From contig JAOADD010000075.1 in assembly GCA_026417495.1 (NCBI GenBank), forward strand, positions 1 to 64,000: 64,000 bases of DNA. The letters are read 5' to 3'. This document shows, in pieces, positions 1,950-56,898 of this stretch. Each line of letters starts with the position of its first letter. The stretch's first letter is position 1. The position numbers and the translations under genes are program-made. The notes below the pieces were generated by a model, which was given only the letters and a program-made list of their open reading frames with translations, made no database searches and had not been told where the DNA came from. This stretch comes from Ignavibacteria bacterium (GTDB taxonomy: Bacteria; Bacteroidota; Ignavibacteria; Tepidaquicellales; Tepidaquicellaceae).

Positions 1950-3968
1950 TTGAAGAATATTATAATAATATTATTCATAATCACGATAGTGCTTTCAGCT
2001 TTTTCACAGGAAGATAAAAAAGAAGAAGAGTCATTTAAAATCACCGATATTGATATCGAAATAAAATCAGATTGTGATATTTCGGAAAAAGAAGTTGAAC
2101 AAATTTTACAAATAAATAAACTTGAATACTTTAACTATACCGACTTTGATTTAGATATAAGACGAATTGATAAATATTTTTTTGATAATGGTTATTTTGA
2201 CGTTGCAATAGATACTCAACTAATAATAGATAAAGATGAGAAAGAGATAGAAGTTATATTCACAATAGAACCAGGAAAAGAATATAAAATAAATCAAATA
2301 AAATATAATGGATTAAATAACATCTATCCCACTGCTGCAGAGCAGATATTCAATGATGAACTTAAAGAGATAAAAGAGGGTCAAAGATATATAAGAAATA
2401 ATTTACAGTCAGAAATAACTCGCGTAATAAATATTCTTAATAATTATGGATATTTAAATGCCCTTGCGGAAAATCCAGATGTAGAAAAAATTATCTCTAA
2501 CTCTACAGAATTGAAGAATAAAGTAAATATAAATCTGAATTTTAATACAGGTCCAATATATAAGTTCGGAAAAACTTATGTAGAAATAAATAACAACCCC
2601 AAAGGTTTAGTAATTGATGAAATATATAAAGATCTGGAATATAAAGAAGGAGATCTATATAGCAAAAAAGCTTTAATCGAAAGTGAAAACAGAATTTCAA
2701 ACATTGAAATGTTGGAAAATGCACGTATTCAAATTAAAAATATAGATTCAGTAAATAAAATAATTGATTTTGTTGTCACAGCATCTTTGACTTCTAGATT
2801 CTCATTGCAACCTGAGATTTCTGGTTATGATATACTAAATAGATTTTATGCTGGTGCATCTTTATCCTTTACAGATAAATATTTCTTAGGAGGTGGTAGA
2901 AAATTAGTCTCAAAAGGTTCTGCTTTCGTTCACTCAGAAGATGTATATCTTTTTGAACTTGGGATGCAACTATATCAACCTTATGTTTTCAACAACAACA
3001 AAATTACAGGGAATTTGAATCTTTCCTGGGTTTATTTCAAGGATGATATATTCTCAATTAGCGCGATTAAAAATGTTGCTGGTTTAAGCTACGAGTTACC
3101 TAAACATACATACATAAACAGCTTTTATTCTTCCTGGGAAATCAACAACTCAAAATTTACAATAAATGCTCCCTTTGATTATATAACAAAAGATTCAGTT
3201 ATAACTCTTCCCGAATATCAAATAAATCTTTTCACATCGATTATCCTTTTTAATGCAATTCATAATAATACAAATAATTTTCAATTTCCATCAAGAGGAA
3301 ATTATCAATCTTATTTAATAGAAGAAAGCGGATTGCTAAGTTATCTGGTTGAAAAAGTATTCAGTACTTCAACATTCAGGTATGTAAAGTTTTCTAGTAT
3401 AAACAAATTCTATTTCAGCTTTAATCCCCCAAATGAAACAACTGTTCTTGCCTGCAAATTCCTTATTGGTGCATTGTTCGAATATGCAAAAAATAAATAC
3501 AAAATATCAGGGATTGAGGAGGAAACTGATATAGACATACCAATACCTGCAAAATTTATAGCAGGTGGAAGTACAAGTATAAGAGGTTGGCAGGCAAAAA
3601 AACTTGGCACATTTCCAACAAGAGAATTTGGAGGTAATTTTCTAATAGAAGGCAGTTTTGAGTTAAGGACAAAACCATTCTATTATTCGAAAACAATTTT
3701 TAAAGAACTCGGTTTTGTAAGTTTTATAGATTATGGAAATTTATGGAGAAAACCAAGAGATTTCAGATTTAGTGATATCGCTATTGCAATAGGTGGTGGA
3801 TTAAGGTATTATACAATTGTAGGACCTGTTAGGTTTGATATAGGATTCAAGTTATATGATTATGAAGCAGAATCTAATGGTACAAAACCATGGTTATTCG
3901 AAAATAATATATCGACAATTTTTAAAAATAAAGTAGCCTTTCAAATAGGAATAGGACATACATTTTAA
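1950..3968 (+). CDS. Omp85-family outer membrane protein, TamA/BamA-like
   Basis: A 672-residue Omp85 protein, the class that inserts or translocates proteins at the outer membrane. It has a signal peptide (about residues 1-20, ending ALSAFSQ-like), roughly three POTRA-like repeats between 30 and 280, and a 16-stranded-barrel-type C-terminal half. The conserved barrel motif appears as SIRGWQ near residue 542 (the RGF/RGW loop-6 motif), followed by a GPVRFDIG strand and a terminal aromatic residue (HTF) typical of barrel proteins. Three POTRAs are closer to TamA than to five-POTRA BamA, so I leave the symbol open. The start is TTG. holB follows after 1 bp. Confidence 0.82.
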   Translation: MKNIIIILFIITIVLSAFSQEDKKEEESFKITDIDIEIKSDCDISEKEVEQILQINKLEYFNYTDFDLDIRRIDKYFFDNGYFDVAIDTQLIIDKDEKEIEVIFTIEPGKEYKINQIKYNGLNNIYPTAAEQIFNDELKEIKEGQRYIRNNLQSEITRVINILNNYGYLNALAENPDVEKIISNSTELKNKVNINLNFNTGPIYKFGKTYVEINNNPKGLVIDEIYKDLEYKEGDLYSKKALIESENRISNIEMLENARIQIKNIDSVNKIIDFVVTASLTSRFSLQPEISGYDILNRFYAGASLSFTDKYFLGGGRKLVSKGSAFVHSEDVYLFELGMQLYQPYVFNNNKITGNLNLSWVYFKDDIFSISAIKNVAGLSYELPKHTYINSFYSSWEINNSKFTINAPFDYITKDSVITLPEYQINLFTSIILFNAIHNNTNNFQFPSRGNYQSYLIEESGLLSYLVEKVFSTSTFRYVKFSSINKFYFSFNPPNETTVLACKFLIGALFEYAKNKYKISGIEEETDIDIPIPAKFIAGGSTSIRGWQAKKLGTFPTREFGGNFLIEGSFELRTKPFYYSKTIFKELGFVSFIDYGNLWRKPRDFRFSDIAIAIGGGLRYYTIVGPVRFDIGFKLYDYEAESNGTKPWLFENNISTIFKNKVAFQIGIGHTF

Positions 3969-3969
3969 T

Positions 3970-5103
3970 ATGTGGAAAAATATCTATGGCCATAAAAAAG
4001 TTATTGAAACACTAAAAAAAATATATAAGAGTAAAAAAATCGCTAATGCATATATTTTTTTTGGACCCGAAGGTATCGGTAAAGATGCAATGGCGATTGA
4101 ATTTGCAAAACTTATCAACTGTGACAATGTTGATGATGAAATAGAAGCTTGTGATAGGTGTGCAAGTTGTAAGCAGACTCAATCGTTGTATTCATCATTA
4201 TTTAAAATTATCACCGCTCTACCTGCAGGAAGTTCCGATAACAAAAAAGATTCAGACCCAATAAATAATTTAAGTAAATCAGACTATGAATATTATTTAA
4301 CTGAACTTGATGAAAAAAGAAAAAATCCATATCATAGAATCAACATACCTGGAGCTAATTTCATAAGAATTGACAGTATTCGTCAACTAAAGAATGATAT
4401 TTATCTAAAAGGTATAAAAGGGAAAAAGAAAATATATCTAATATCAAGAGCAGACATGATGAACATTGAAAGTTATAATTCATTACTAAAAATACTAGAA
4501 GAACCACCTGGAGATTCCCTTTTAATATTAACTACTTCAAGGATAAATTCACTCCCAGCAACAATAATCGGAAGATGCCAAAAAATAAAGTTTAATCCAT
4601 TAGGGATAAACGAAATAGAAGACTATTTAAGAAATATTAGACATGATTTTACAGAAGAGGAGATAAAATTTTACTCACGCCTTTCGGAGGGCAGCATAGT
4701 AAAACTTTTAAATTTACTAAATACTAATTATGTTGAATTGCGTGATAATATCGTGGATATGTTGAGAAATATAATAACAAGTAGTTACATTTCTCTTTCA
4801 AATGAGATAAAAAAAATAATTGAAAATAAAGATAAAGATAGAATAAAATACATTCTTCAAATTCTGCAACTATGGTTTAGAGATGTAATTTATGTAACAA
4901 ATGGAAAAAATGAATATGTAATAAATATTGATAGAATTGATGTCTTGGAAAAATTCAGTAAAAATATAAAATCAAATTGCTACAAAATAATAAATTTTCT
5001 TGAAGATTCATTAAGAGATATTGAAATTAATATCAATCCTGAATTAGCATTGAACAAACTATTCTTTAATTTAAAAGGAGAATTAGAAAGGGTTAAAAGC
5101 TAA
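3970..5103 (+). CDS. holB: DNA polymerase III delta-prime-type clamp-loader subunit
   Basis: AAA+ clamp-loader ATPase-fold subunit of the replicative polymerase. P-loop GPEGIGK at residues 32-38, a four-Cys zinc module at C51, C61, C64 and C67, the LLKILEEPP motif, and the sensor-like IIGRCQ segment that in clamp loaders carries the SRC-type arginine finger region. At 377 residues it fits delta-prime rather than the longer tau/gamma. It starts 1 bp after the Omp85 gene. Its 3' end overlaps the convergent lipoprotein gene by 11 bp. Confidence 0.85.
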   Translation: MWKNIYGHKKVIETLKKIYKSKKIANAYIFFGPEGIGKDAMAIEFAKLINCDNVDDEIEACDRCASCKQTQSLYSSLFKIITALPAGSSDNKKDSDPINNLSKSDYEYYLTELDEKRKNPYHRINIPGANFIRIDSIRQLKNDIYLKGIKGKKKIYLISRADMMNIESYNSLLKILEEPPGDSLLILTTSRINSLPATIIGRCQKIKFNPLGINEIEDYLRNIRHDFTEEEIKFYSRLSEGSIVKLLNLLNTNYVELRDNIVDMLRNIITSSYISLSNEIKKIIENKDKDRIKYILQILQLWFRDVIYVTNGKNEYVINIDRIDVLEKFSKNIKSNCYKIINFLEDSLRDIEININPELALNKLFFNLKGELERVKS

Positions 5104-6571
5104 TATTTACATTTTCTAAAGTCCAATTCCCCTGAACCACTAACAATTCGGGATTCATAAAAAAAGGTTCGCACATTGAGTAAGGGAAATAATTACCTCG
5201 GTTATAAACACCATCTTCATTTTCATCAACAAAAGCAAATAAAGTATACTTCCCCTCAAGAATATTATCAAATCCATATATTGAATTTAAATCAAATACT
5301 CCTCGATGATATATCAAACTATTTTCATTATTAACCAGATATACTATAACCTTTTTCTGATAATTTCCGTAAATATTTCCTTTTAAATTACCAAATTTTC
5401 TGATAGGTGCCGTTTTGAATTTTAAATTATGAACCTTGTTATCTATTTGAATCTCTAATGTATAAGATATGAAATAATTTAAATTTTCCTGTGGTCTAAT
5501 GTTAAGTATAGTATCAGAGACCCAATAAAAATTTAATAAGACTTTAGAATTATCAGAGTTATTAATCAACTTAGTTCCAGAAATTAAATCAAGTTTAGGG
5601 ATTTTTTGATGTTTTAAATAAGTTAATATGGATGGTATTACAGGCAAATTTTCTGCTCCATTACTATATGAAAAAGCGACATTCCCCAATGAATCTAAAT
5701 TTAGTTGATTTATCAACCATCTTGCATTCGTATTTGCTCCTTTAAAAATGATATTTTGTGAACCCCATAAACTTAAACAATACTCTGTCGTGTATTTCGG
5801 ATCAAGATCAAGTAGAAAATTAATACCAGTGATATTTGAACTATCCATTGACAAAAAGATATCATTCGTGATAGCAATATTATCAAAATCAGGAGTATAA
5901 AGGTAATCCCTATCATTATCAACGATAGCGAACAATCTATATTTTCCATATGGTAAATTTGTAAATGAAAACTCTCCGTTGGGCGCGACAGGACAAACAA
6001 AATCTGGTTGTAAAAATTCTGGATTGATATCTTGATTAATAATTTTATAAGCGGTTACAACAAGATTTCTATAAACTTCAGATTTAGAAGGTACAAAAGA
6101 GAAATCAAAAACACGACCAGAAATTTTCCCTTCATCAATTGTAGCTCCTGTCGAAATAGCAAATGAAATAGGTTCAGTGATAGGATTTCCTCTATTAACA
6201 TCTTTAAGTAATTTTCCAATCGTAAAAACATAAGTTCTATTTTTTTCAAGTGGAGTAGAAAATTCTATTTCCACTTCTTTTCCCGACCAATTAAGTATTA
6301 TATCCCCTTTGGGTCTTGGAGAAATAAATAACGCTTCTCTAAAAGAGCGTCTATCTACATATTCATCAAATGTAATTCGTATCTTATTATCTTTAAAATT
6401 AACAGTATTATTAGGCGGATAGATTTCAACAACCTTTGGTGGGGTAGTATCATCCTCACCACCACTTGGTGGTTCCTGAACAGCGCAATAAAAACCAAAT
6501 ATTAATAAGAATAAAATGTAAAATCTTTTAATAATATTAATCAACAAACTATTTCTTAATTGCTTTATCAT
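5093..6571 (-). CDS. Ig-like (Big_5/SbsA) domain lipoprotein
   Basis: A 492-residue putative lipoprotein. After a hydrophobic signal segment (residues 12-28) there is a lipobox ending GFYC at Cys29, then a Gly/Pro/Asp-rich tether containing DDTTPPKVVEIYPPNN. This is the usual N-terminus of the Bacteroidetes 'Ig-like domain-containing protein' family. The next about 100 residues match a Big_5-type Ig domain (ITFDEYVD... and FTIGKLLKDVNRG, as in SbsA). Two later stretches of the kind GEFSFTNLPYGKYRLFAIVDND and GKYTLFAFVDENEDG resemble carboxypeptidase-regulatory-like beta folds. It probably sits in the outer membrane or periplasm; the function is unknown. Its start lies inside the end of the upstream kinase gene (23 bp overlap), so the two are likely cotranslated. 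Confidence 0.78.
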   Translation of the reverse strand: MIKQLRNSLLINIIKRFYILFLLIFGFYCAVQEPPSGGEDDTTPPKVVEIYPPNNTVNFKDNKIRITFDEYVDRRSFREALFISPRPKGDIILNWSGKEVEIEFSTPLEKNRTYVFTIGKLLKDVNRGNPITEPISFAISTGATIDEGKISGRVFDFSFVPSKSEVYRNLVVTAYKIINQDINPEFLQPDFVCPVAPNGEFSFTNLPYGKYRLFAIVDNDRDYLYTPDFDNIAITNDIFLSMDSSNITGINFLLDLDPKYTTEYCLSLWGSQNIIFKGANTNARWLINQLNLDSLGNVAFSYSNGAENLPVIPSILTYLKHQKIPKLDLISGTKLINNSDNSKVLLNFYWVSDTILNIRPQENLNYFISYTLEIQIDNKVHNLKFKTAPIRKFGNLKGNIYGNYQKKVIVYLVNNENSLIYHRGVFDLNSIYGFDNILEGKYTLFAFVDENEDGVYNRGNYFPYSMCEPFFMNPELLVVQGNWTLENVNISF

Positions 6572-9500
6572 TATTATCTATGTATATATGAAACTTTAAA
6601 ATAACTTTTGTTCCCACATTTACTTTACTTTCTATAGTTATTGAAGCTTTAATATCATCAAGGGATTTTTTGGTGATGGCAAGTCCAAGTCCCATACCAC
6701 TACTTTTCGTTGAAAAATTAGGCTCAAACAATTTTTCCAACACTTCTTCTTCCATACCTATTCCTGTATCTATTATTTCCACATAGACAAACTTATCATC
6801 AAAATAGGAATTTGCGGTAATAGTTCCTTTTTCAAGAATAGCTTGGAATGCATTTTTTACAATATTCTGAAAAATTCTATTTAACTCCTGTCGGTCTGCT
6901 CTTATAAGTGGTAGGTCAGGTTTTAAGTTCTTAATGATAGTTATTCTTTCCTCAAATGAATATAAGGTAAGTACTTCTTCCAATACTTCATTAACATTTA
7001 TTAGTTCATAATGTCTAGTAGGCATTTTTGCAAAATTCGAAAAGTCCGTCGCAATTTTATTCAGTCTATCAATTTCTCTTATTATAATCACCTTTGTATC
7101 CTCAACAGCTTTCTGCATCTCTTCTCTCGTCTTCATTTCTTTGAACACTTTGGATAGATGTTGAATTGATAATTTAATTGGAGTAAGTGGATTTTTGATT
7201 TCATGAGCTACTCGCATTGCAATGTCGCGCCATGCAGCTTCTCTTTCTGCTCTTTTTTGTTGTTCTTTTGAAACTTCCAGATCTTTTATCATTTTATTAA
7301 AAGCATCTACTAAAATACCAAGTTCATCACTTCTTTTTATATCTATCTTAATATTAGGTTCTGCACGGGCAACTTTTTCAGTCGCTTCCTTTAAGATCAA
7401 AATTGGTTTCGACAATCTGTCAGTAAAGAACTTTACAAGTATCAAAATTAATATAACAACAATAATATAAGAACCAAAAATAAATGTAATTGTTTCGGTT
7501 AATTCTTCATTAATTTCATTCTGTCTAAAAAGAGTTACAGAAGAAACAATTGCTGATATTTTATTGCCAATATCAAATATAGGCTTATATCCTTCAAAAA
7601 ATGTAATTGCACCTATATGACGATTTTTGAAAAAGTTATCTTTTCTCAACAGCACTAAATTGTAGTAAGCATCAGCATCAAGTCTTTTGCTTAACAAATC
7701 TGATTTAAATAGCTCATCACTTGTTGTTGACACAAGTTTATTATTTATAAATATATTAAAATTTTTATCCGTCTTTATAAAATATCTTTCAAGAGCATTT
7801 TTATATCTTCTACCTGTTGTATCTGGCAATAATTTTACATTAGGTGGATAACCCTTTTCACTACTTAACACTTCGGAAACTAAACTTAAATCAGATAGTA
7901 TTTGACTTTGTGTAGATGTATCGTATTTATTAATAATAAAAGCTCTTGTATAGAACCCAAGAGCTATTATTGGTATTACAGAAATTAAAAGAAAGATTAA
8001 AAATAATTTATTTCTAAAGCTGAACTTAATATTTTTCAGTCTATAAGATGTAACAAGAGAAGATAATATATATACAATTATAAAAATTAATATATTAATT
8101 AAAATATATTTAAAGAAATAAAATATATAAACACCATAGTCTTTTTCTTTTGTAGTTAGAGCGATAATTCTTACAGGGGTGTTTAAATTTGGCTCGTCAA
8201 TATTTTTCGGTTCTGCAAAATAAAAGTAAGTGTTATACTCCTCATCATTAATGTAAACCTTTTTCCATAAGTTTTTCTTTTTACTTGTAAATACATAATT
8301 TGAAAACTCTGGAATGAAATTTTTAACTTCTTCCGCAACTACAATATCCGTTGCTGTTTCAATTTCAGAGTTTACAAATTCAGATACTTCAGGTTTTGCA
8401 ATCAATTTATATAATAAATTATCCTTATCCTGACTTCTGAAGAGTTGCTGCTGTTGAGTTACGAAATTTTTAACATCTGATTGAAGTACAATCAAAACAT
8501 AACCCAGTAATTTTGCCCGTTGTGTATTTTTATATTGAGATTTTTCTATGGATGTAATACCAATGTAATATTTTTCAATAGGGTTTTTAAAAATTGTTAC
8601 ATTCTCAAACATAACAGGATAGAAGTCATAATCGGTATTCTCTATGTCAATCTCCTCTAAACTTTCTACAATCGTATCATTATCAGGTGGTGAAAAAATA
8701 TAAGGTTTATTAAAAAATTTTATAGATGCATATTTTAATACACTATCAGTCTCAATACTTAGTGGACTTATATTAAAATCAGAAACTATTTTCTTATTCG
8801 AATCAAGAATAATAATAGCAGAATTGTAACTTTCACTTATTAATTTACTTTCAGACCATAATTTAAAAGCTAAACCCTGTAATTTTGATTTATCTAAAAT
8901 AGAATTTTCAATGCTCTTATCTGTATTAATATCATGTAATACATTCGATAAGATAATTATTGCCTTTTCTTCTTCAAGATTTGTAATACTTTTTCCTAAT
9001 GATTCGATATAATCTGGTTCTTTCAACTTCAAATTATATAAAAGAACAATCGGCATTAAAATAACGCTTGCTAATATAACAATGTAGAAATTCTTAAGAT
9101 TAAAAAGTTTTAGATTCCTTTGCACATAAGCATTTTTTACTATATAATATCCCGCAACGAAGATTACAAATACAATAAATAAATCAAGAAATTTTTCTAT
9201 CTTCAAAGTTAAGTATGATGAAAGAGCTATACTAATTGCTGAAAATATTACAAATAATATAACAAATAAAAATCTTTTTATTAAAGAAGAATTTAATAAT
9301 TTCTTTATTCGGAAATATGATATAATCAATAATGAGCAATTTAAAAAAATCAGAATAAAAGTTACAATGAGGAGTACTAGGTTTATTATTAATAATTCTG
9401 GTGAAGGTATAATACTACTTTTATCTAAAAACTTGATATTGGAATCAGTAATAATGTTTTTGAAAGTAGAAAAATAAAGCAATAATATTAGGATAAAAGA

Positions 9501-10670
9501 AAAAATTAATATTATTTGGATTGCTAATTCTATCAACAAAGATTTATTATTCTTCTGCCCATATATATTTTCATTAGTTGAAAATATTTTGGCAACATAA
9601 ACAATCCATATTAAAAGCAAAGAAAATGTTATAAACAACTCTCCGAGTGACTTCGCTAAGCCAACAAAAGTACCTGTAGCAAAATGTTGAGGATTAAATA
9701 AATCAGATTGTAAAATTTCAGATGGGAATTTAAATATTAACCATAAATATCTTATAAATACTAAAAGTAATAGGGACATCAAAGCTTTTAAAAAATCCAC
9801 TTTATCATTCTTGATTAGTTTCATGCCCCTATAAAATAAGAAACCAATAATTATTGTAATAAATAAAACTAAAATAGAAACGAATTTTGCTACTGTTTCT
9901 TGAAGTTCAGCAGTATAGGTTCGTTTATCATATTGATCTAATATGATAGCTCCAATAACTGAACCATCTATACCATTAATTAACAAAAACTCATTGTCAG
10001 CACCCTTATTCTGTAAAGTACTAAGTTCAATTGATTCAGAATTAATTAGTTTTGGTGAGGATAATCCAATTTTATTTATAATTTGATTTGTTAACCCAAT
10101 ATCAGGGAAAAATTTCTCCTTATTTTTAAAAGTTACATCAAGTAGTGATGCTGTAACTGAAACAGCAACCACATCAGATTCTGCATCTTGAATTGGTGAG
10201 AATATTAGTAAATAGGAATAAAAACCAATATTTTTAATAAAAGAAAAACTCCGACCTGTAAAGCATTTCTGCAATAAATACATATCGGGTAACAATTCCC
10301 TACCCGAAAAAAATAATAGATTAAATTTTCTATCATATATCTCACAACAAAAATCTTCTGACAAATTTAATTTTTCATAAGATGCAAAAATTTTATTAAT
10401 ATCTTTATTTGCAATTGCTTTTTTAATTTCATCAGAGGACAAAATTAAATTTGTATACTTTAATAGAGAAGATTGATATTCATCAAATATTTGTTTACAT
10501 TTTTCTTTTTGTTCAGTTACTTTTTCGCTGTATATATTTGACCACTTAATATCAATTTGCGACTTTAGTCTTTCTTCAAATAATCCAATAACTATAATCC
10601 AAAGTATTAAGAAAACTAAAACCGAAATTAAAATCCAATTAAATTTGTCAAAAAATTTATTGCTATTCAA
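6549..10670 (-). CDS. Giant multi-sensor NtrY-like histidine kinase
   Basis: A 1373-residue membrane histidine kinase. After an N-terminal membrane helix there is an extracytoplasmic segment, then a block of many transmembrane helices (about residues 250-560), a second extracytoplasmic region, two more helices near 860-920, a third sensory region, a helix and a HAMP linker. The catalytic core is C-terminal: the HisKA box VAHEIKNPLTPIKLS with His1156, an N box near 1269-1273, DTGIG near 1301 and a GMGLGLAI G2 box. The HEIKNPLTPI box and architecture resemble NtrY. The start is TTG, 1 bp after the DUF4783 stop. No response regulator is adjacent, so its partner is encoded elsewhere. Confidence 0.85.
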   Translation of the reverse strand: MNSNKFFDKFNWILISVLVFLILWIIVIGLFEERLKSQIDIKWSNIYSEKVTEQKEKCKQIFDEYQSSLLKYTNLILSSDEIKKAIANKDINKIFASYEKLNLSEDFCCEIYDRKFNLLFFSGRELLPDMYLLQKCFTGRSFSFIKNIGFYSYLLIFSPIQDAESDVVAVSVTASLLDVTFKNKEKFFPDIGLTNQIINKIGLSSPKLINSESIELSTLQNKGADNEFLLINGIDGSVIGAIILDQYDKRTYTAELQETVAKFVSILVLFITIIIGFLFYRGMKLIKNDKVDFLKALMSLLLLVFIRYLWLIFKFPSEILQSDLFNPQHFATGTFVGLAKSLGELFITFSLLLIWIVYVAKIFSTNENIYGQKNNKSLLIELAIQIILIFSFILILLLYFSTFKNIITDSNIKFLDKSSIIPSPELLIINLVLLIVTFILIFLNCSLLIISYFRIKKLLNSSLIKRFLFVILFVIFSAISIALSSYLTLKIEKFLDLFIVFVIFVAGYYIVKNAYVQRNLKLFNLKNFYIVILASVILMPIVLLYNLKLKEPDYIESLGKSITNLEEEKAIIILSNVLHDINTDKSIENSILDKSKLQGLAFKLWSESKLISESYNSAIIILDSNKKIVSDFNISPLSIETDSVLKYASIKFFNKPYIFSPPDNDTIVESLEEIDIENTDYDFYPVMFENVTIFKNPIEKYYIGITSIEKSQYKNTQRAKLLGYVLIVLQSDVKNFVTQQQQLFRSQDKDNLLYKLIAKPEVSEFVNSEIETATDIVVAEEVKNFIPEFSNYVFTSKKKNLWKKVYINDEEYNTYFYFAEPKNIDEPNLNTPVRIIALTTKEKDYGVYIFYFFKYILINILIFIIVYILSSLVTSYRLKNIKFSFRNKLFLIFLLISVIPIIALGFYTRAFIINKYDTSTQSQILSDLSLVSEVLSSEKGYPPNVKLLPDTTGRRYKNALERYFIKTDKNFNIFINNKLVSTTSDELFKSDLLSKRLDADAYYNLVLLRKDNFFKNRHIGAITFFEGYKPIFDIGNKISAIVSSVTLFRQNEINEELTETITFIFGSYIIVVILILILVKFFTDRLSKPILILKEATEKVARAEPNIKIDIKRSDELGILVDAFNKMIKDLEVSKEQQKRAEREAAWRDIAMRVAHEIKNPLTPIKLSIQHLSKVFKEMKTREEMQKAVEDTKVIIIREIDRLNKIATDFSNFAKMPTRHYELINVNEVLEEVLTLYSFEERITIIKNLKPDLPLIRADRQELNRIFQNIVKNAFQAILEKGTITANSYFDDKFVYVEIIDTGIGMEEEVLEKLFEPNFSTKSSGMGLGLAITKKSLDDIKASITIESKVNVGTKVILKFHIYIDNNDKAIKK

Positions 10671-10671
10671 A

Positions 10672-11124
10672 TTAGTTTAATATTATTTGTTCCAAATACC
10701 AATTTGTTTCTTTATACTTTAGAGAAATCGATGCATTAATCTTTATATTAGTACTATTTCTCGTATAGACACAGTATCCAATAGCAAAAGCAGAATTAAC
10801 GTTAACAAATGATTTAACATAATAAAAATTGATAATAGAAAAATAATCTAAGAAATCTATCAATATTTGTTCAGCTTGATTAACACTATAGTAGCCCGCA
10901 TCAAAACCAAGAAGATCTAAATATACTTCCGAATCAAAATATCTTGTTATTCTATCAATATTATAATTTTTAAAACCACTTGCAATATTTTCAAATGTTA
11001 ACTTGCACTCCTTGTATTTAATATTATTAGGATACTTTTTATCATTCCACCATTTATCCTGACTAAAAGCATTTAAAGTCAGTATTATTAAGAAAAAAAA
11101 TATGAAATACGACTTCTTATGCAT
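10672..11124 (-). CDS. Secreted DUF4783 protein
   Basis: A 150-residue exported protein with a clear signal peptide (residues 1-21, cleaved after AFSQ). The remainder matches the DUF4783 pattern: a FENIASGFKNYN segment, ITRYFDSEV, then QAEQILIDFL, and a C-terminal sheet. This family is NTF2-like and of unknown role in Bacteroidetes. It is the first gene of the probable operon DUF4783, kinase, Ig-like lipoprotein. The 1-bp spacing to the kinase suggests it acts with that sensor, for example as a periplasmic ligand-binding accessory, though this is inference only. Confidence 0.7.
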   Translation of the reverse strand: MHKKSYFIFFFLIILTLNAFSQDKWWNDKKYPNNIKYKECKLTFENIASGFKNYNIDRITRYFDSEVYLDLLGFDAGYYSVNQAEQILIDFLDYFSIINFYYVKSFVNVNSAFAIGYCVYTRNSTNIKINASISLKYKETNWYLEQIILN

Positions 11125-11197
11125 ATGTAAATTAATTTAATGAAAAGGTATTAAAGTTTAAAGTTTATAAAATCGTAAAATATTATTATATTAATTT

Positions 11198-12418
11198 ATG
11201 TTTTCTAAATTTTTCCAAAGGGATTTCCAAGCAAATGAACTATTTAAGCTAAAAGAAGAAATCCAAAAAGAACTTCACAAAAATAAATCAACTCAAGAGA
11301 AAGAGCCAAAGATAATTGATTTTACAATTTCTAATCCGACAATTTGTAATTTTGATTATTCAATTTATAAACTTGATAAAATATTTTCAAATCCTAATAA
11401 CTATGAATATAAACCTTCTCCAAAAGGTACTGAAGAATTAAGGATAGCTATTGAGGAATATTACAAGGAAAGATTTATTAGTTCAAATGAAAAATTAAAA
11501 TTTGACAAGGACAACTTATTTTTTACATCAGGGACAAGCGAATCATACTCATACTTGTTTAAAATTTTCTGTAATCCAAATGACAATGTTTTAATCCCTA
11601 AACCAGGTTACCCATTAATTTATTACATTGCTGAGATTAATAACATAAAAACAAAATATTATAATATAAAATATAAAAAGGGAATTTGGCAAATAGATTT
11701 CAAAACCCTTGAAAAAGTTATATCAAAAGATACTAAATGCATTATTGCCATTAATCCCAATAATCCGACAGGTAATTATATAAAAAGTGATGAATTTCAG
11801 AGATTGATAAAAATCTGTGAAGAGAAAAAATTACCATTAATTATTGATGAAGTGTTTTATGATTATAGAAAAAGATTTCATCCTAATAGCATTTATCTTG
11901 AACAATTCAAAGAATATAATATACCGATATTTATATTAAATGGTTTATCAAAAATTGCTGCATTACCTCAAGTAAAATTAGGATGGATTTATTTCACAGC
12001 ATCGAATAATCAAAAAGAAAAAATTAGAAAAATTTTGGAATTTATTTGTGATATTTATCTATCAGTAAATACACCCATAACAAATGGTGCACCCGAAATT
12101 TTAAAATCCTATAAAACTATTCAATCTAAAATAAAAGAAAGAATAGAATCAAATTTAAGATATTTAAATAGAGTAGTAAAATCATCTAAGAAGTTAAAAT
12201 TTCTAAATTATGAAGGTGGATGGTACGCTATTATTAAGGTCAAAGATAAAATTGACGATGACTATTTCACTTTAAAAGCATTGAGAGAAAAATATGTTTT
12301 TCTCTATCCTGGATACTTTTATGAATTTGATAAGGACGGATATCTTGTAATTTCTTTGATTATACCCGAAATGGATTTTAGAGAAGGTATTGAAAGGATA
12401 TTACAAATTTGCAATTAG
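11198..12418 (+). CDS. PLP-dependent class I/II aminotransferase
   Basis: Fold-type I aminotransferase of 406 residues. Visible PLP-site residues are Asn187 in NPNNPTG, Asp218 in IIDEVF with Tyr222, and the Schiff-base Lys252 in NGLSKIAALPQ, followed by KLGW. It resembles the alanine/aspartate-type aminotransferases of the family, but the substrate cannot be read from the sequence. Its promoter region is the 73 bp shared with the divergent DUF4783 gene. The 3' end overlaps the convergent glycosyltransferase by 18 bp. Confidence 0.83.
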   Translation: MFSKFFQRDFQANELFKLKEEIQKELHKNKSTQEKEPKIIDFTISNPTICNFDYSIYKLDKIFSNPNNYEYKPSPKGTEELRIAIEEYYKERFISSNEKLKFDKDNLFFTSGTSESYSYLFKIFCNPNDNVLIPKPGYPLIYYIAEINNIKTKYYNIKYKKGIWQIDFKTLEKVISKDTKCIIAINPNNPTGNYIKSDEFQRLIKICEEKKLPLIIDEVFYDYRKRFHPNSIYLEQFKEYNIPIFILNGLSKIAALPQVKLGWIYFTASNNQKEKIRKILEFICDIYLSVNTPITNGAPEILKSYKTIQSKIKERIESNLRYLNRVVKSSKKLKFLNYEGGWYAIIKVKDKIDDDYFTLKALREKYVFLYPGYFYEFDKDGYLVISLIIPEMDFREGIERILQICN

Positions 12419-13525
12419 TTTCTCATAACTCTCACACTCTTTTTGATGAGAATATATGTAAGAAAATTGAATACTTGATTGCAAAATTTTATTTTTAAAA
12501 TAATCATAATTTTCCTGCAAATACAAGATTTTCTCTACAAGCTGACCAGTATTGTTAGGTTCATATAATAACTCCATGCACACATCTTGCAGAATTTCTC
12601 TTGTCCCACCTGTATTAGTACCAATGACAGGAATAGTGGAAATTATAGCTTCTATAGTATTTTGGCCATAAGTTTCAAATTCAGTAGCAATAATTAGAGA
12701 ATCAATTGCATTATAAAAAATTGATATATCTTCAATGTAATCTTTAAAGAATATATAATTAAAGAGTTCTTTTTCCTGTACTAAATCATATAAATATTTT
12801 AGATATTGTTGTCCTTCATTCAAAGTTGGTTTCCCAAGAATATACAAAAATATTTTTTTGTCAAATTCTTTTATAATTTTTTCCAAAGCATTAATTACAA
12901 AATGCTGATTTTTCTGAATATCAATTCTAGCATTCATACCTATAATGAAACCTTTTTCAGGTAACCCTAAAATTTTTCTTGACTGAGTCTTATTGATTTT
13001 ATTTTGTATTAATTTATTGACATCAGAACTGTGTTTAATTACTTCAATTTTATTTTCAGAAATTGTTGTTTTCTCAAGGGTCTGTAATTTCAAATACTCT
13101 AATGGTACTATCCATTTATCTACATTTGAAAATATAAATCTATGATACAAATCTCTTTTCTTGACGCCAATCTGCATATGTAAAATGTAAATTAGACTTA
13201 ATCTCTTTCTATAAAATTTCTTTAGCAATACAGCAAAGTTTAAATCATTATTATCACTAACGAAAATTATATCTGGTTCAATTGATTTTATTAAGTTTAA
13301 TGCTTTTCTAAGTTTAATTATGTCGAAATATTTTTTGGGCTTTTCAATTGAATAAACTCTCAAATTTCTTTTTTCAGCTTCATCAATAACTTTTGTGTCT
13401 TTCGCTCCTAATATATTAATATCCCACCCTCTCTCTTGCATCCACTTACAAAATTCTATTGAATGTAGCTCAAGTCCCCCAAAAGCTGATGAGAGAAGTA
13501 TAAATAATAGTTTTTTTCTTTTCAT
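12401..13525 (-). CDS. GT4-type glycosyltransferase
   Basis: A 374-residue retaining glycosyltransferase with two Rossmann halves (GT-B fold). The N-terminus has the nucleotide-sugar family's GGLE acceptor-loop motif near residues 16-19. The C-terminal half has GMNARIDIQKNQ (Arg200 and Lys205) and the EX7E motif at Glu284 and Glu292, followed by GTNTGGTREIL. These are the donor-phosphate and sugar-binding elements of family GT4. The substrate is unknown. It stands alone without other polysaccharide genes, so a lipid or envelope glycan role is only a guess. Confidence 0.83.
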   Translation of the reverse strand: MKRKKLLFILLSSAFGGLELHSIEFCKWMQERGWDINILGAKDTKVIDEAEKRNLRVYSIEKPKKYFDIIKLRKALNLIKSIEPDIIFVSDNNDLNFAVLLKKFYRKRLSLIYILHMQIGVKKRDLYHRFIFSNVDKWIVPLEYLKLQTLEKTTISENKIEVIKHSSDVNKLIQNKINKTQSRKILGLPEKGFIIGMNARIDIQKNQHFVINALEKIIKEFDKKIFLYILGKPTLNEGQQYLKYLYDLVQEKELFNYIFFKDYIEDISIFYNAIDSLIIATEFETYGQNTIEAIISTIPVIGTNTGGTREILQDVCMELLYEPNNTGQLVEKILYLQENYDYFKNKILQSSIQFSYIYSHQKECESYEKLIANL

Positions 13526-13606
13526 TAATATGAAAACAGATTATAGTTTACAATATATTCATCTTATATTGTTGTTTAAATGATGAAAATTTGATATATT
13601 TACAAT

Positions 13607-14104
13607 ATGAAAAAGATAAAATTAATATTACTAATATTTAGCGTTTTAATTTTTATCGGAAATTCTTATCCACAATATAAAACTCCATATGGAAATCCAT
13701 TGAACGAGAATACGAATTATATTCTTGGGTTCATTAACCCAAAAAATTTTTCAATGAAGCATTCCTTTGGAGTCTCTATATTATCTTCAAGATATGGAAC
13801 AATCTCCTTGACTTCTTATATAAATACACTTAGCTACAAAATTTCCGATAAGCTTTTTATGTCTGCAGATGTTGAGCTAAGTTACTCACCATATGTAAGT
13901 TCAGCATTCGGCAAAAGTTACTCAAAACTACTTCAAGATGAATTTACAGGAATTAGGCTTTCAAGATTGAATTTGGATTATAAGATTTCAGATAATTCCT
14001 ATATAAAATTTGAATTCAGGAACTTAAAAAATTATTATTTCGATCCTTATTACTACAATAACTACGGAATTTATGATAATCGATTTTACGATACTCAACC
14101 ATAA
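13607..14104 (+). CDS. Secreted Tyr-rich protein, possible small outer membrane protein
   Basis: No recognised family. It is 165 residues with a signal peptide (about 1-22, ending NSYPQ). The mature part alternates polar and hydrophobic residues in stretches such as LMSADVELSYSPY and YIKFEFRNL, typical of beta-barrel strands, then ends in a Tyr/Asn-rich tail. The ATG at 13607 is only 4 nt after a TATATTTAC element. It precedes the LytR_C gene by 66 bp and may be transcribed separately. Confidence 0.55.
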   Translation: MKKIKLILLIFSVLIFIGNSYPQYKTPYGNPLNENTNYILGFINPKNFSMKHSFGVSILSSRYGTISLTSYINTLSYKISDKLFMSADVELSYSPYVSSAFGKSYSKLLQDEFTGIRLSRLNLDYKISDNSYIKFEFRNLKNYYFDPYYYNNYGIYDNRFYDTQP

Positions 14105-47172: not shown

Positions 47173-50100
47173 TTAATTTATTTTAATATTTGTTAATTTA
47201 AAAAATTCTTCTTCAAACCTTTTAACAACCACATCACATCCATAATTAAACATTCTATTATAATTATCTTCTGTAGTATGCTCAAGTTTCATCTTTCCGT
47301 TTGTCTTTTTATCAGGTAATAAAGAGGCAATTTCTATAGTTATATTATTTGTTAAGTCAAGTTTATTTTTAACTCCAAAAAGTTTCATTAAATCAATAAA
47401 TTGTTCAAATGTTCTTCTCTCTACAAAAGGTTCTATTTCACGATCAAAATGTAGGATAAATTTTTGAGTATTCGTATAGCTACCACCACTTTCCTGTGGA
47501 AGTGACGCAGGTAAAATTAAATCAGCTAATTCAGCTGTTTCTGTAATGAAATAATCTTGAACCACTTTAAATTGAGCCTTAGAAAGCATCTCAAGTATTT
47601 TATTTTTATCTATAGCACATCCTAGAGGGTCTTCTCCAAAAATAAATATATTTTTAACATTACCTTTTATAATATAATCTAATAAATTTTCGTTAACTAC
47701 AACAGGTATCTGAGATACATTCCATACCTTCTTTAATTTTATAATGAATTCTTCGTCATTAACAATATCCATACCACCAACTCCTAATGCTGGATGTATT
47801 CCCATATCAAATAGTCCTTGTGAATTATTTTTTTCCTTAAGAGCTATTAATCCACTGGATATTTTCCCTAACTTCCCTGTTATTAATACTAAATTATAAA
47901 GCTCCTTCACAGCATTAGAAGAAATATGTTTTTCAGAAAATATTATGATTGCATTTTGCTCAATATTAAAGTTATCAGCAAATTCCATTAATCTTTTTTC
48001 AAAGAAAACACCTGAATTCTTAAGTAAGGTATTATAATCTTCGAATAGTAATGATTTTTTATATTCTTCAAAACCTTCAGTATGGTCATTAATGAATATT
48101 CTGTTTTCTCTATTGTGACTAAGTAGATAATGATTTACAGCTTTTATAAAATAGTAATATGATTTCACAATCAGCACTCTATCTGCTCTTTTCAACATAC
48201 TACTGTTTTCATCAGTAGTAATTACTTCTAATTTTGTATTATTTTTAATTCGTGCATTATTGATAAGATAACTTACAACAGGATTTTCATAATTAATCTC
48301 TGAGCCTATTAAATAAATTTTACTCGCTCCACTAATTTGCTCAAAAGGAACATTTAAATAGTTATCTGTGTAATATCCATTTCCCCTATTTAAATAATGG
48401 AAACTACTTATATTGTTTGTTTTAACCGCTGCACGTGCAAATTTTTGAATTAAGTATAACTCTTCATTAGAGAGTCTTGCACCTGCAAAAAATACATTCT
48501 CATCAGGGAGTACAGATTTTATTTTATCGTAAATAATCTTATATGCAGTATCAAAATCAATTTCTTTAAATTCTCCTCGATGTTTATATAATGGTTTTAA
48601 AACTCTCGATTTATCATTTAAATATTGATAACCGAACTTTGCATATCTACAAATATTCGTATCTTTATTTACTACACCTGGAGCACCTGTCACTTTCATA
48701 TAATATCCATTAATATGGTGCAATCTTATTTCACAACCGATAGAGCAGAAATTACATACAGTTTCATAATCTGTAAGTTTTACTGGACCTGGTTTAAACT
48801 TTACATTTTCTGTTATAGCACCAGTCGGACAGGTAGATATACACATTCCACAAGATTCACAATCTGTATCAAGAAGTTTCTTATTCATACTTGGTGCTAC
48901 ATAAGTATCAAATCCTCTATTTACAAGTCCAAGAGCATTTGCTCCTACTACTTCTTTACAAATTCTTATACACCTTGAACAAAGTATACATTTATTATTA
49001 TCAATTTCAATATAAGGATGACGGAAATCAATTTCATAAGTTTTAAATTCTCCCCCAAGTTTATATTGCTCTGCTTTATATTGAGTTGAATATTTTTTCA
49101 AATCACAAGTAAAATATTCAGAACATCCACATTCAAGGCATCTAAGTGTTTCCCTATAAGCCATTTCATCTGTATATCCTAATTCTACTTCATTGAAATT
49201 TTTTCTCTTATCTGGAGGTAATGTTGGCATTTCTTCCCTTAGTTGATACTTATATCTATCTTTATATTCTTCAGGCAACTGCTTTCTGAAATTATCTTTT
49301 CTACTAATAAATTCGAATTCCTCTCCTGTTATTGGTTCACCTGATAAATATTGATGACAACTTTTGGCTGCTTTTCTTCCCTGTGCAATTGCTTCTATTA
49401 AAGTAGCAGGACCAGTAACAGAATCTCCTGCGGCGAATATATTTTTAATTGATGTTCTTAATGTATGTTTATCAGCTTCTATATCACCCCATTTATTTAT
49501 AATCAATTTTTCATCGGAATTATCATTTATATCATTGATAAAGTCTACATTAGTCTTCTGTCCTATTGCAGCAAGTATATAATCCACTTCTATTTCAAAT
49601 TCGGAACCATCTACTTTAATTGGTCTCCTTCTTCCTGATGCATCTGGTTCACCAAGTTTCATCTTGTAACATGTTAATGACTTAACTTTACCAGATTCGT
49701 CAAGATTTACTTTTGCAGGGGCAGTTAAGAATAAATATTCAACACCTTCCAGTTTTGATTCATGAATTTCAATTTTATTTGCAGGCATTTCGTTTTCGGT
49801 TCTTCGATATACAATATATACTTTTTCCGCACCACATCTCATTGCGGTTCTACAACAATCCATTGCTGTATTACCACCACCAATAACAGCTACTTTTTTA
49901 CCAGTGAAATCATACCTTTGCCCTGTTAATTCCATATTTCTTAAAAAATCAATACCTGAAAATACATTTTCTGCATTGTCATTTTCACAACCAATTCTTG
50001 TACCAGACTGAGAACCAATTGCAAGAATAAAAGCATCATATTTATTTTTTAAGTCTTTGAAACTCAAATTTTTACCTAATCTTTTTTCATAATGTATTTT

Positions 50101-50877
50101 AACACCGAGTTTACAAATATTTTCAACTTCTTTATCTATAATATCATTTGGAAGTCTATAGGGTGGAATTCCATATCTTAGCATACCTCCTGGATGAGGA
50201 AGAGCTTCAAAAATTTCTACACTATGTCCTTCTAATGCTAAGTAGTATGCTGCTGTCAAACCACCTGGCCCTGCACCGATAATGCAAACCTTTTTATTAG
50301 TTGCAGGTTTAATTTCAGGAGATAAATCCGTACCGCTTTCGAAATCCTTATCAGTAGCATATCTTTTGAGATAATCTATTCCTACACCAACACCTTCAAC
50401 TAAATTTCTCCTACAAGCAACTTCACAGGGCCTGACACAAACTCTACCACAAATAGCTGGTAGTGGATTGGTCTCTTTAATTAATTTTACTGCTTCACTA
50501 TACAATCCTTTATTAATTAATGCTATATACCCCTGTACATCAACACTAGCAGGACAAGTTAATTTGCAAGGAGCAACACAATCTGCATAATGATTACTTA
50601 AAAGTAATTCTAAAGCTGCTTTTCGAGATTTGATAACTTTATCGCTATTCGTAGTAATTTTCATCCCTTCAGCTATCTTAGTCGAACAAGATGGTTGCAA
50701 ACCTCGCATACCTTCAACTTCAACTACACAAACATAACAAGAGGAATATGGCTCCAATCTTTCATCATTACACAAAGTTGGAATATCAATACCATTCCTT
50801 GTAGCTAATTGAAGAATGGTTTCACCTTTAATACCTTTTACAATCTTTCCGTTTAAAATTACATTTAATTTTTCCAT
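47173..50877 (-). CDS. NuoG/GltD/molybdopterin-type multidomain oxidoreductase
   Basis: A 1234-residue iron-sulfur flavoprotein. (1) Residues 1-75: plant-type [2Fe-2S] domain, C36, C47, C50 and C64, as in NuoG. (2) 96-160: clusters of the GltD type (C100, C104, C108; C143, C147, C151, C155). (3) 195-510: FAD/NAD(P) unit with GAGPGG at 201-206 and GGGNTAMD at 333-340, full length. (4) C580, C583, C585, C591 and two ferredoxin clusters, C630-C640 and C673-C683. (5) From about 705: molybdopterin-type [4Fe-4S] C708, C711, C715, C743, and a domain to the end. Where formate dehydrogenases place a catalytic Cys/Sec, near residue 825, I see none, so it is NuoG-like rather than a formate dehydrogenase. 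It follows NuoF and NuoE in one operon, 23 bp after the NuoF-like gene. Confidence 0.85.
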   Translation of the reverse strand: MEKLNVILNGKIVKGIKGETILQLATRNGIDIPTLCNDERLEPYSSCYVCVVEVEGMRGLQPSCSTKIAEGMKITTNSDKVIKSRKAALELLLSNHYADCVAPCKLTCPASVDVQGYIALINKGLYSEAVKLIKETNPLPAICGRVCVRPCEVACRRNLVEGVGVGIDYLKRYATDKDFESGTDLSPEIKPATNKKVCIIGAGPGGLTAAYYLALEGHSVEIFEALPHPGGMLRYGIPPYRLPNDIIDKEVENICKLGVKIHYEKRLGKNLSFKDLKNKYDAFILAIGSQSGTRIGCENDNAENVFSGIDFLRNMELTGQRYDFTGKKVAVIGGGNTAMDCCRTAMRCGAEKVYIVYRRTENEMPANKIEIHESKLEGVEYLFLTAPAKVNLDESGKVKSLTCYKMKLGEPDASGRRRPIKVDGSEFEIEVDYILAAIGQKTNVDFINDINDNSDEKLIINKWGDIEADKHTLRTSIKNIFAAGDSVTGPATLIEAIAQGRKAAKSCHQYLSGEPITGEEFEFISRKDNFRKQLPEEYKDRYKYQLREEMPTLPPDKRKNFNEVELGYTDEMAYRETLRCLECGCSEYFTCDLKKYSTQYKAEQYKLGGEFKTYEIDFRHPYIEIDNNKCILCSRCIRICKEVVGANALGLVNRGFDTYVAPSMNKKLLDTDCESCGMCISTCPTGAITENVKFKPGPVKLTDYETVCNFCSIGCEIRLHHINGYYMKVTGAPGVVNKDTNICRYAKFGYQYLNDKSRVLKPLYKHRGEFKEIDFDTAYKIIYDKIKSVLPDENVFFAGARLSNEELYLIQKFARAAVKTNNISSFHYLNRGNGYYTDNYLNVPFEQISGASKIYLIGSEINYENPVVSYLINNARIKNNTKLEVITTDENSSMLKRADRVLIVKSYYYFIKAVNHYLLSHNRENRIFINDHTEGFEEYKKSLLFEDYNTLLKNSGVFFEKRLMEFADNFNIEQNAIIIFSEKHISSNAVKELYNLVLITGKLGKISSGLIALKEKNNSQGLFDMGIHPALGVGGMDIVNDEEFIIKLKKVWNVSQIPVVVNENLLDYIIKGNVKNIFIFGEDPLGCAIDKNKILEMLSKAQFKVVQDYFITETAELADLILPASLPQESGGSYTNTQKFILHFDREIEPFVERRTFEQFIDLMKLFGVKNKLDLTNNITIEIASLLPDKKTNGKMKLEHTTEDNYNRMFNYGCDVVVKRFEEEFFKLTNIKIN

Positions 50878-53289: not shown

Positions 53290-55158
53290 TTATTGTTTTT
53301 TATTTCCGTTGTTAATTTCTACTGGTTCTGAAACAGTCTCGTCTTTTGGTAATTCCTCTTTTACTTTTGTTAAATCTTCACCACTTAATTTCTTATGTAT
53401 TGCATTAGCAGCTATTCTGCCTGCACCCATCGCTTGAATAACAGTAGCAGAACCAGTTACAATGTCGCCACCTGCATATACATTCTCAACTGATGTTTCA
53501 TTCGTCTCTGGATTTACTTCTATATATCCCCACTTATTTCTTTTTAATTCTGGGAAATCCTGAAATATTAATGGATTTGAAGAAGTTCCAATAGCAACAA
53601 CAACAAGGTCACATTCAATAATAAAATTCGAACCTTCAATCGGTATTGGCCTTCTTCTACCCGAACTGTCAGGTTCACCTAATTGCATCCTTATGCATTC
53701 CATTCCTTTAACCATTTTCTGGTCATTCCCTATATATCTTATGGGGTTAGTAAGCAACATAAATTTTATCCCCTCTTCTTCAGCATGTCTTACTTCCTCA
53801 ATCCTTGCAGGTAACTCAGCTCTAGATCTACGATAAACAATAGTTACTTCAGAAGCACCCGTTCTAATTGCTGTTCTTGCTGCATCCATTGCAACATTTC
53901 CTCCACCAATTACGACCACTTTGTTTCCCTTAGGTTTTGGTGTATCATACTCGGGAAAGCGATATGCTTTCATCAAATTCATTCTAGTAAGATATTCGTT
54001 AGCTGAAAATATATTCCCTAAATTTTCACCTTCTATATTCATAAACACAGGAAGCCCAGCCCCAACTCCAATAAAAACAGCATCAAAATTCTGTTTCAAC
54101 TCTTGCATAGTTACTGTTTTGCCAACAACGCAATTCAATTCTATTTTTACTCCAAGTTGTTTTAAGTAATCTATTTCAGCATGGACAATTGCTTTTGGTA
54201 ATCTAAATTCAGGAATACCATAAACTAAAACTCCTCCAGGTTCATGTAAAGCTTCAAAGATTGTTACCTGATATCCAAGCTGTTGTAAATCTGCTGCAAC
54301 TGTAAGTCCTGCAGGTCCACTACCCACAACAGCTATTCGTTTATTGATTCTCCTTTTAATTTCAGGAATTTTTACAAGTTCCATCCTTCGCTCATAATCA
54401 GCAAGAAATCTCTCAAGATTACCAATCGCAACAGGTCTATCCCTTAATCCGAGTATGCATTTTGCTTCACATTGAGTTTCCTGTGGACAAACTCTACCAC
54501 AAATTGCAGGTAAAATATTTCGCTCTTTAATTTTTTTTATTGCTTCATCATATTTACCCTCGGAAGTTAACCTTATGAATTCTGGAATATCTATATTTAC
54601 AGGACAACCATCAACACATTTTGGTTCTTTACATTGCAAACATCTACCTGCTTCTAACTCTGCTAATTCCGATGTATAACCATATGGAACCTCCTGAAAA
54701 TTCGTCACTCTCAGCTTTTGGTCCTGCTCAGGCATTTCTTGTCGTGGAATTTTTAGTTTTATCTTATTTTCATCTGCTTTCGTCAAGCCATGCCAAGGAC
54801 AACCGCATCTCATACAGATGAAGAATGGAATCAACTTTGAGAATGCCGTTATTATCATCTCAGCAGCTGCAGAACCACATTCAGCACACTTGATATTATC
54901 AACTATCAAGGACTTCTTACATTTCGGACAGAGTAAGTCATCTAGTATATCCCCTTCCGCAATCGGTTTAGAAGAAACCACTTCAAATACATCTAAATAT
55001 GGACTTAGTTTTAAATCAATTAATTCTCCTTTATATTTTGCTTTGAATACTAAATATTTCTCTTCTTTCCGTTCCCAATTGAATGTATTTTTACAATGCG
55101 GACAATATGTATTTAGATAAGTCTTAAACTTCAGGTATTTTACATCTTGAAGTACCAT
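53290..55158 (-). CDS. NfnB/GltD-like NADPH flavoprotein with N-terminal zinc ribbon
   Basis: A 622-residue flavoprotein. The first about 125 residues are a zinc-ribbon module with Cys pairs C19/C22, C77/C80, C91/C94 and C115/C120, not found in standard GltD or NfnB. Residues 160-240 carry two [4Fe-4S] motifs (C173, C176, C181, C185; C220, C224, C230, C234), then FAD-binding GSGPAG at 279-284 and NADPH-binding GGGNVAMD at 418-425, both full length. This is the domain order of GltD and of NfnB, the NADPH subunit of NADH-dependent ferredoxin:NADP oxidoreductase. It follows the NfnA/SudB-like gene by 19 bp. The same module occurs twice in the protein encoded at 56023-56898. Confidence 0.85.
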   Translation of the reverse strand: MVLQDVKYLKFKTYLNTYCPHCKNTFNWERKEEKYLVFKAKYKGELIDLKLSPYLDVFEVVSSKPIAEGDILDDLLCPKCKKSLIVDNIKCAECGSAAAEMIITAFSKLIPFFICMRCGCPWHGLTKADENKIKLKIPRQEMPEQDQKLRVTNFQEVPYGYTSELAELEAGRCLQCKEPKCVDGCPVNIDIPEFIRLTSEGKYDEAIKKIKERNILPAICGRVCPQETQCEAKCILGLRDRPVAIGNLERFLADYERRMELVKIPEIKRRINKRIAVVGSGPAGLTVAADLQQLGYQVTIFEALHEPGGVLVYGIPEFRLPKAIVHAEIDYLKQLGVKIELNCVVGKTVTMQELKQNFDAVFIGVGAGLPVFMNIEGENLGNIFSANEYLTRMNLMKAYRFPEYDTPKPKGNKVVVIGGGNVAMDAARTAIRTGASEVTIVYRRSRAELPARIEEVRHAEEEGIKFMLLTNPIRYIGNDQKMVKGMECIRMQLGEPDSSGRRRPIPIEGSNFIIECDLVVVAIGTSSNPLIFQDFPELKRNKWGYIEVNPETNETSVENVYAGGDIVTGSATVIQAMGAGRIAANAIHKKLSGEDLTKVKEELPKDETVSEPVEINNGNKKQ

Positions 55159-56022: not shown

Positions 56023-56898
56023 TTACCATTCCATACTATCTTCAAGTTTTATTTCATTAATATCATCTTCACTTAAACCATGCCATCTACAACCTTTTTT
56101 AGAGCATATATAAAAATCAATTAATTTAGTCCTAGCACTAATGGAAATAACCGCGACAGGAGATCCACACAATTCACAAGACTTGTCCTTTAAAACCAGA
56201 CTTTGCTCACAATGAGGACACTTGATATCATTTACTACTTTATCCTCTTGCAAAAAAATAGTAGATTTTGAAGAAAAGACATTTAAATATGGACTTAAAA
56301 ATACATATCCTTCTTCGTTCTTTTCATTAATTATTTTAAGTTTTAACATATCTTCTTCATTCAAACTATGCTTACAAAATGGGCAGTAAGCATTTAAATA
56401 AGTTCCTGTTTCTATTATTTCTTTTACCTCATCTTCTTCCTTATTTGATACTTTCTCTTCTCGTGCAGGTTGTGTTTCAGGTTCTAAAATCTTCAATTGA
56501 TAACCATAATCTTGATATAACTTTGTCAATGCTTGTGATAAATCTTCAAACTCAACAAGGTGATTTTTACAACCCGCTCTTGAACAAATTGTAACTTTAC
56601 CCCCTATATCTAAAACAAAAGTCACCATAGGAGCATTACAAACACTACACTTTTCATCTGTATTTAAAACACCATTGCAATGCATACAAGAAAAAGTTGC
56701 AATAGAGTCTTTCTGTATTTCAAAATCACAAATATAATTATAACTTCCATAGATTGAGCTTAGTCTAATTATTCCAGACTTGTCCTCTATTTTAATTTTA
56801 AGTTTTATACTAGGTTGATTATCAACCAAAATTTCTTCATCCATAAAAGACTCACTGCAATGGGGACATTTAACATTTAATGAAATAAAATTATACAT
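56023..56898 (-). CDS. Double zinc-ribbon protein of unknown function
   Basis: A 291-residue soluble protein made of two copies of one eight-Cys zinc-ribbon module joined by a charged linker (about 138-165). Copy 1 has C11/C14, C71/C74, C84/C87 and C105/C110. Copy 2 has C172/C175, C227/C230, C241/C244 and C265/C270. The second copy shares YLNAYCPFCK, LSPYLNVF and ICSKKGCRWHGL with the N-terminus of the NfnB-like flavoprotein two genes on. It starts the operon, 20 bp upstream of the NfnA-like gene. I do not recognise it as a described family. It may be an assembly or regulatory partner of the flavoprotein complex. Confidence 0.75.
   Translation of the reverse strand: MYNFISLNVKCPHCSESFMDEEILVDNQPSIKLKIKIEDKSGIIRLSSIYGSYNYICDFEIQKDSIATFSCMHCNGVLNTDEKCSVCNAPMVTFVLDIGGKVTICSRAGCKNHLVEFEDLSQALTKLYQDYGYQLKILEPETQPAREEKVSNKEEDEVKEIIETGTYLNAYCPFCKHSLNEEDMLKLKIINEKNEEGYVFLSPYLNVFSSKSTIFLQEDKVVNDIKCPHCEQSLVLKDKSCELCGSPVAVISISARTKLIDFYICSKKGCRWHGLSEDDINEIKLEDSMEW

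Follow-up and report, generated by a model that had tools for sequence, protein, structure and literature searches.

A StnC-like transhydrogenase subunit with a putatively inactive formate dehydrogenase-like domain, encoded in a probable NfnAB-StnABC operon of an Ignavibacteria bacterium

Introduction

The StnC subunit of the StnABC transhydrogenase of Sporomusa ovata carries an FdhF domain that is catalytically inactive and whose two clusters form an electron-transfer branch without function (PMC10482914). Deletion of this domain or exchange of the C1/C2 cysteines blocks proper assembly of the S. ovata complex (PMC10482914), and the enzyme showed no formate oxidation (PMC7483475). The structural role of the FdhF part is left partly open in the structural authors' account. 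Lys170, an unusual ligand of cluster C7, separates StnC from NfnB, which has Glu, and the replacement of C114 by Val is known among StnC homologues (PMC10482914). In acetogens, Stn and Nfn are almost mutually exclusive, with exceptions that have both (PMC7483475), and in Thermococcaceae the two are alternatives (PMC9304861).

The locus described here lies in a 64,000-nucleotide stretch of an Ignavibacteria bacterium genome (the window). An earlier sequence-only reading of one of its genes described a molybdopterin-type domain without a visible catalytic residue, fused to a GltD unit in a combination that it considered uncommon. The analysis suggests, with a probability of roughly 0.93, that this gene encodes StnC, the NADPH subunit of an electron-bifurcating transhydrogenase of the Stn/Nfn-Bfu type, and that its FdhF-like domain has neither molybdopterin nor catalysis. 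The architecture of StnC is that of an enzyme already characterized and solved; the gene cluster around it is the more interesting result.

Identity and domain organization of StnC

The gene begins with ATG and runs for 1234 codons without an internal stop, so that no in-frame UGA is present; the claim that no UGA-coded Sec is hidden in the frame is thus borne out. A phmmer search of the PDB with the whole protein returned 9bov_A (3.8e-236), the large subunit of Caldicellulosiruptor NfnABC, and 8oh5_C (1.4e-234), the large subunit of S. ovata StnABC. The chain consists of a [2Fe-2S] domain, a GltD-like FAD/NADP unit, a ferredoxin-like [4Fe-4S] domain, and an FdhF-like domain; the GltD unit interrupts a NuoG-like chain, following its N-terminal [2Fe-2S] domain and preceding its [4Fe-4S] domains (Table 1). 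This is the standard StnC/NfnABC architecture, represented by structures 8OH5, 8OH9, 9BOV, and 9BP5, and StnC is found in about 17 of the 119 sampled genomes of the class; on both counts, the fusion of GltD to an inactive fold is not uncommon. The site of the GltD insertion, the absence of PF01568, and the neighboring StnB, StnA, and NfnAB go beyond what the sequence-only reading had covered.

The conservation of cluster ligands was read from an alignment of 17 StnC orthologues, consisting of the window sequence, those of two named Ignavibacteria MAGs, and those of 14 class genomes. The four ligands of the [2Fe-2S] domain (C36, C47, C50, and C64) and all eight cysteines of the ferredoxin domain (residues 621-700) are invariant; overall, 26 of the 27 listed Fe-S cysteines are invariant and the remaining one is Ile in two sequences. 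Lys171, which corresponds to K170 of S. ovata StnC, is likewise invariant in the 17 sequences, and Val occupies the position of S. ovata C114. Matches bearing GltD in four further genomes (G081, G018, G011, and G060) were rejected as StnC because a by-eye reading revealed other fusions without the FdhF domain. In the loci of two of these, L029 and L030 (G011 and G060), a frame of ∼1000 aa combines a GltD-like unit with a StnB/NuoF-like protein, placing the NADPH unit on the FMN subunit rather than within StnC; next to this fusion lies a coding region for a StnC-like [2Fe-2S]/ferredoxin piece.

Table 1. Features of the StnABC locus, with positions in the window
Feature	Position	Strand	Evidence
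Rubrerythrin/ferritin-like protein, 151 aa	46706..47161	(-)	PF02915 7.9e-16
StnC-like subunit (NfnABC subunit A), 1234 aa	47173..50877	(-)	phmmer vs PDB
StnC residues 704-1234, FdhF-like domain, [4Fe-4S] ligands C708, C711, C715, C743, without catalytic Cys/Sec, without PF01568	47176..48768	(-)	alignments, Pfam
Asn830 codon, site of FdhF Sec140	48388..48390	(-)	alignment with FdhF
StnC residues 621-700, two-cluster [4Fe-4S] ferredoxin domain	48778..49017	(-)	PF22117/PF12838
StnC residues 103-592, inserted GltD/NfnB-like FAD-NADP(H) unit with [4Fe-4S] ligands	49102..50571	(-)	PF14691, PF07992
StnC residues 1-102, NuoG/HydA-like [2Fe-2S] domain	50572..50877	(-)	PF13510
StnB (NuoF/HydB-like, FMN/NAD bifurcating subunit), 592 aa	50901..52679	(-)	8oh5_B 2.8e-261, 9bov_B 4.1e-256, end-to-end
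StnA (NuoE/HydC-like [2Fe-2S] subunit), 184 aa	52709..53263	(-)	PF01257 8.6e-50
NfnB/NfnL-like subunit, 622 aa, Glu at proximal-cluster position (GNLERF)	53290..55158	(-)	4ylf_B 1.5e-172, 5jca_L 2.7e-154
NfnL N-terminal zinc-ribbon-like extension, ∼130 aa	54769..55158	(-)	homology to C-terminal half of the 56023-56898 protein
NfnA/NfnS-like FAD/NAD/[2Fe-2S] subunit, 274 aa	55178..56002	(-)	5jca_S 2e-95, 4ylf_A 1.4e-82
Tandem zinc-ribbon protein, 291 aa, first gene of the probable operon	56023..56898	(-)	weak zinc-ribbon matches

Gene neighborhood and its conservation

The StnABC gene set is complete at the locus: stnB and then stnA lie upstream of stnC, at gaps of 23 bp (stnC-stnB) and 29 bp (stnB-stnA). 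The end-to-end match of StnB to 8oh5_B covers an N-terminal thioredoxin-like part, the FMN/NAD part, and a C-terminal ferredoxin part with two [4Fe-4S] clusters. Upstream of stnA follow NfnB, NfnA, and the zinc-ribbon gene, at gaps of 26, 19, and 20 bp, respectively. Both Nfn proteins align as full-length homologues of the solved NfnAB subunits, and the Glu in the GNLERF motif of NfnB is that of true NfnB, at the position where StnC has Lys170. The N-terminal extension of NfnB is conserved in family members and shares 42% identity over 127 aa (7.5e-28) with the C-terminal half of the 291-aa zinc-ribbon protein; neither module reaches a Pfam cut-off. The position of the 291-aa gene is kept in nine related loci. 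Outside the family, two weak zinc-ribbon matches were detected (G066 and G013), and the former was rejected since its frame encodes a histidine kinase.

The order zinc ribbon, NfnA, zinc-ribbon-NfnB, StnA, StnB, StnC, and rubrerythrin recurs in five loci (L009 from Ch128a, L090, L091, L092, and L093), and three others (L094, L096, and L097) agree with it up to the limits of their contigs. The genes are more widely spaced in some relatives, with ∼0.3-0.6 kb separating NfnB from StnA or StnB from StnC. NfnAB is missing from L031 and L095, in which the zinc-ribbon gene immediately precedes StnA, and no NfnB was found elsewhere in the genome of L031 (G005). A single transcript for the NfnAB-StnABC cluster is likely, and NfnAB and StnABC probably constitute one operon that is conserved in several genera of this Ignavibacteria family. 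A limited literature search found no description of a joint NfnAB-StnABC operon.

Most of the loci read outside the family encode StnABC without the company of NfnAB, the zinc-ribbon protein, or rubrerythrin. Stn and Nfn occur together in G001, G061, G093, and G039, at separate places or side by side, and finding both in a single genome is not unusual for the class. At L036 of G039, NfnAB (4208-6573) is divergent from StnABC (8032-14070), with a response-regulator-like gene between them; this is a second way in which the two enzymes lie close together. In L010, a locus of the fen_1302 MAG, NfnAB and the zinc-ribbon protein are replaced by an NADP-type malic enzyme with a phosphotransacetylase domain that precedes stnA (317-2629). 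The stnB frame of this locus is divided into two ORFs (3252-4863), perhaps by a frameshift or an assembly error.

The joint cluster contrasts with the reported near-exclusion of the two systems and is a good example in which to study why both would operate in one cell. NfnAB and StnABC, with the same net reaction and a different build, might act in this family as one co-expressed unit or supercomplex that is tethered by the shared zinc ribbons and linked to rubrerythrin, although this proposal is doubtful.

It is improbable that the main partner of the StnABC core is instead the downstream rubrerythrin, with the complex helping to feed electrons to peroxide as in the proposed Rub-Bfu. The rubrerythrin gene begins 11 bp after stnC and also directly follows stnC in the eight close relatives with a complete cluster, and Rub-Bfu has been proposed where the BfuB gene precedes rubrerythrin (PMC9304861). 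However, Rub-Bfu lacks the A subunit that is present here, Pfam detects no rubredoxin domain in the rubrerythrin-like protein, more distant relatives have no detected rubrerythrin gene next to StnABC, and electron transfer is not demonstrable from gene neighborhood alone.

Predicted electron transfer

By analogy with the S. ovata enzyme, StnABC would reversibly couple NADPH to NAD+ and ferredoxin. NADPH would reduce an FAD in the GltD insertion, predicted to be non-bifurcating, and a chain of [4Fe-4S] and [2Fe-2S] clusters, from C7 to C3, would carry the electrons to the FMN of StnB. The electrons would be divided at StnA/StnB between NAD+ and ferredoxin, while the reverse reaction would yield NADPH. 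For StnABC at this locus, we infer that NAD+ and ferredoxin are reduced together at the expense of NADPH. The FdhF-like domain would contribute to assembly, with neither molybdopterin nor catalysis, and its [4Fe-4S] sites may be retained for their part in stabilizing both the fold and the StnC tetramer.

The FdhF-like domain

The C-terminal domain of StnC matches Molybdop_Fe4S4 (PF04879, 8.5e-6, residues 704-754) and Molybdopterin (PF00384, 3.5e-28, residues 758-1156), and the four cluster cysteines attributed to it by the sequence-only reading are all present. Four catalytic residues of FdhF, Sec140, His141, Lys44, and Arg333, are replaced in StnC by Asn830, Arg831, Tyr745, and Lys1014, respectively. 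In the underlying alignment, StnC TNNISSFHYLNRG lies under TNNVDCCARVXHG of Escherichia coli FdhF (PDB 1aa6; X is Sec140). The stretch FHYLNRGNGYY, which starts at residue 826, had been correctly picked out as the region of the catalytic Cys or Sec, and the proposed alignment with formate dehydrogenase places Asn830, and not Cys, Sec, Ser, or Asp, at the position of the metal ligand. Cys is absent from this column in all 17 aligned StnC, which have N, D, G, V, F, L, or I, and in five further StnC of the family (0 of 22, window included), whereas it is present in all 11 of the Mo/W-type enzymes from this class that were aligned. Asp occurs in one StnC only (L010), within a stretch that is otherwise unconserved.

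The loss extends beyond the ligand. Pfam detects no match to PF01568 (Molydop_binding, domain IV) in StnC, and the FdhF alignment stops at FdhF residue 511 of 715. After position 1198, StnC sequences continue for 33-46 residues, compared with 152-189 in the 11 Mo/W enzymes of the class, such that ∼110-150 residues of the C-terminal cofactor domain are missing. In the host genome (99.77% complete), no match was found for MoeA, MoaC, or a PF01568 protein, all of which have matches in 11-12 of 14 control genomes. Of 18 additional genomes with StnC, 14 also lack MoaC, among them all eight tested from the same family.

The absence of the ligand, the missing domain IV, the lack of MoaC and MoeA, and the published inactivity of the S. 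ovata domain together support the view that the FdhF-like domain is an inactive, cofactor-free Mo-type fold, as the sequence-only reading had proposed. A structural role is consistent with the conservation of cluster cysteines in genomes that lack cofactor genes; the retention of the FdhF part and its Fe-S cysteines without molybdopterin-synthesis genes provides independent support for such a role in StnC. A working or conditionally working Mo/W enzyme, with Asn or no ligand and an imported cofactor, would make the protein a hybrid of transhydrogenase and formate dehydrogenase. Its intact Fe-S site and partly retained non-catalytic FDH-like motifs would fit such an enzyme, yet the four catalytic-site replacements, the variability of the Asn830 site among orthologues, the missing domain IV, and a genome without MoaC or MoeA make it highly implausible.

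The domain retains the FDH-like motifs NNSQGLFDMG and TNTQKFI and scores better against true FDHs (5e-49) than against S. ovata StnC (1.6e-35), which suggests that it is less decayed than its Sporomusa counterpart and counts against the cofactor-free reading. Recent replacement of the C-terminal domain by an FDH was considered and rejected: identity is higher in the N-terminal than in the C-terminal part in every pair of StnC orthologues (51/31, 58/43, and 52/32, for example), and nothing therefore points to an unusual event particular to this lineage. An AlphaFold2 model of residues 690-1234, based on a three-sequence alignment, was rejected for its low pLDDT of 38.8.

Identification of the protein as NuoG of respiratory complex I or as a HydA-type hydrogenase subunit, with which StnC shares [2Fe-2S] and [4Fe-4S] domains, is scarcely credible, given that none of the eight neighboring genes examined encodes a membrane-arm subunit, StnB, with cluster domains at both its N- and C-terminus, belongs to the HydB/StnB type, NuoG has no GltD insertion, Pfam matches no H-cluster domain, and the end-to-end match to 8oh5_C/9bov_A excludes it in practice.

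Comparison with known systems

StnABC of S. ovata (8OH5 and 8OH9) shares with StnABC of this locus the domain order, three subunits encoded together, the Lys170 ligand, the cluster cysteines, and the inactive FdhF domain. In contrast with S. ovata, C114 is Val here, the FdhF domain keeps more FDH motifs, and the cluster adds NfnAB, zinc-ribbon proteins, and rubrerythrin. NfnABC of Caldicellulosiruptor saccharolyticus (9BOV and 9BP5) provides the best PDB match of StnC and has the same architecture in another phylum. Nfn-Bfu of Thermococcus sibiricus has, by description, an NADPH subunit and a bifurcating core of the same type (PMC9304861, PMC10482914); unlike that of the window, the archaeal C-terminal domain is partial and without the cysteines for one cluster.

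The two upstream genes correspond to NfnAB (4YLF and 5JCA), from which they differ in the ∼130-aa zinc-ribbon extension of NfnB and in being clustered with stnABC. Domains I-III and the [4Fe-4S] site of E. coli FdhF (1AA6) have homologous counterparts in StnC, whereas the active-site Sec/Cys, His, Lys, and Arg are not kept and domain IV is missing. NuoG of complex I is GltD-free and encoded with membrane-arm subunits, and the StnC of the window fits neither description.
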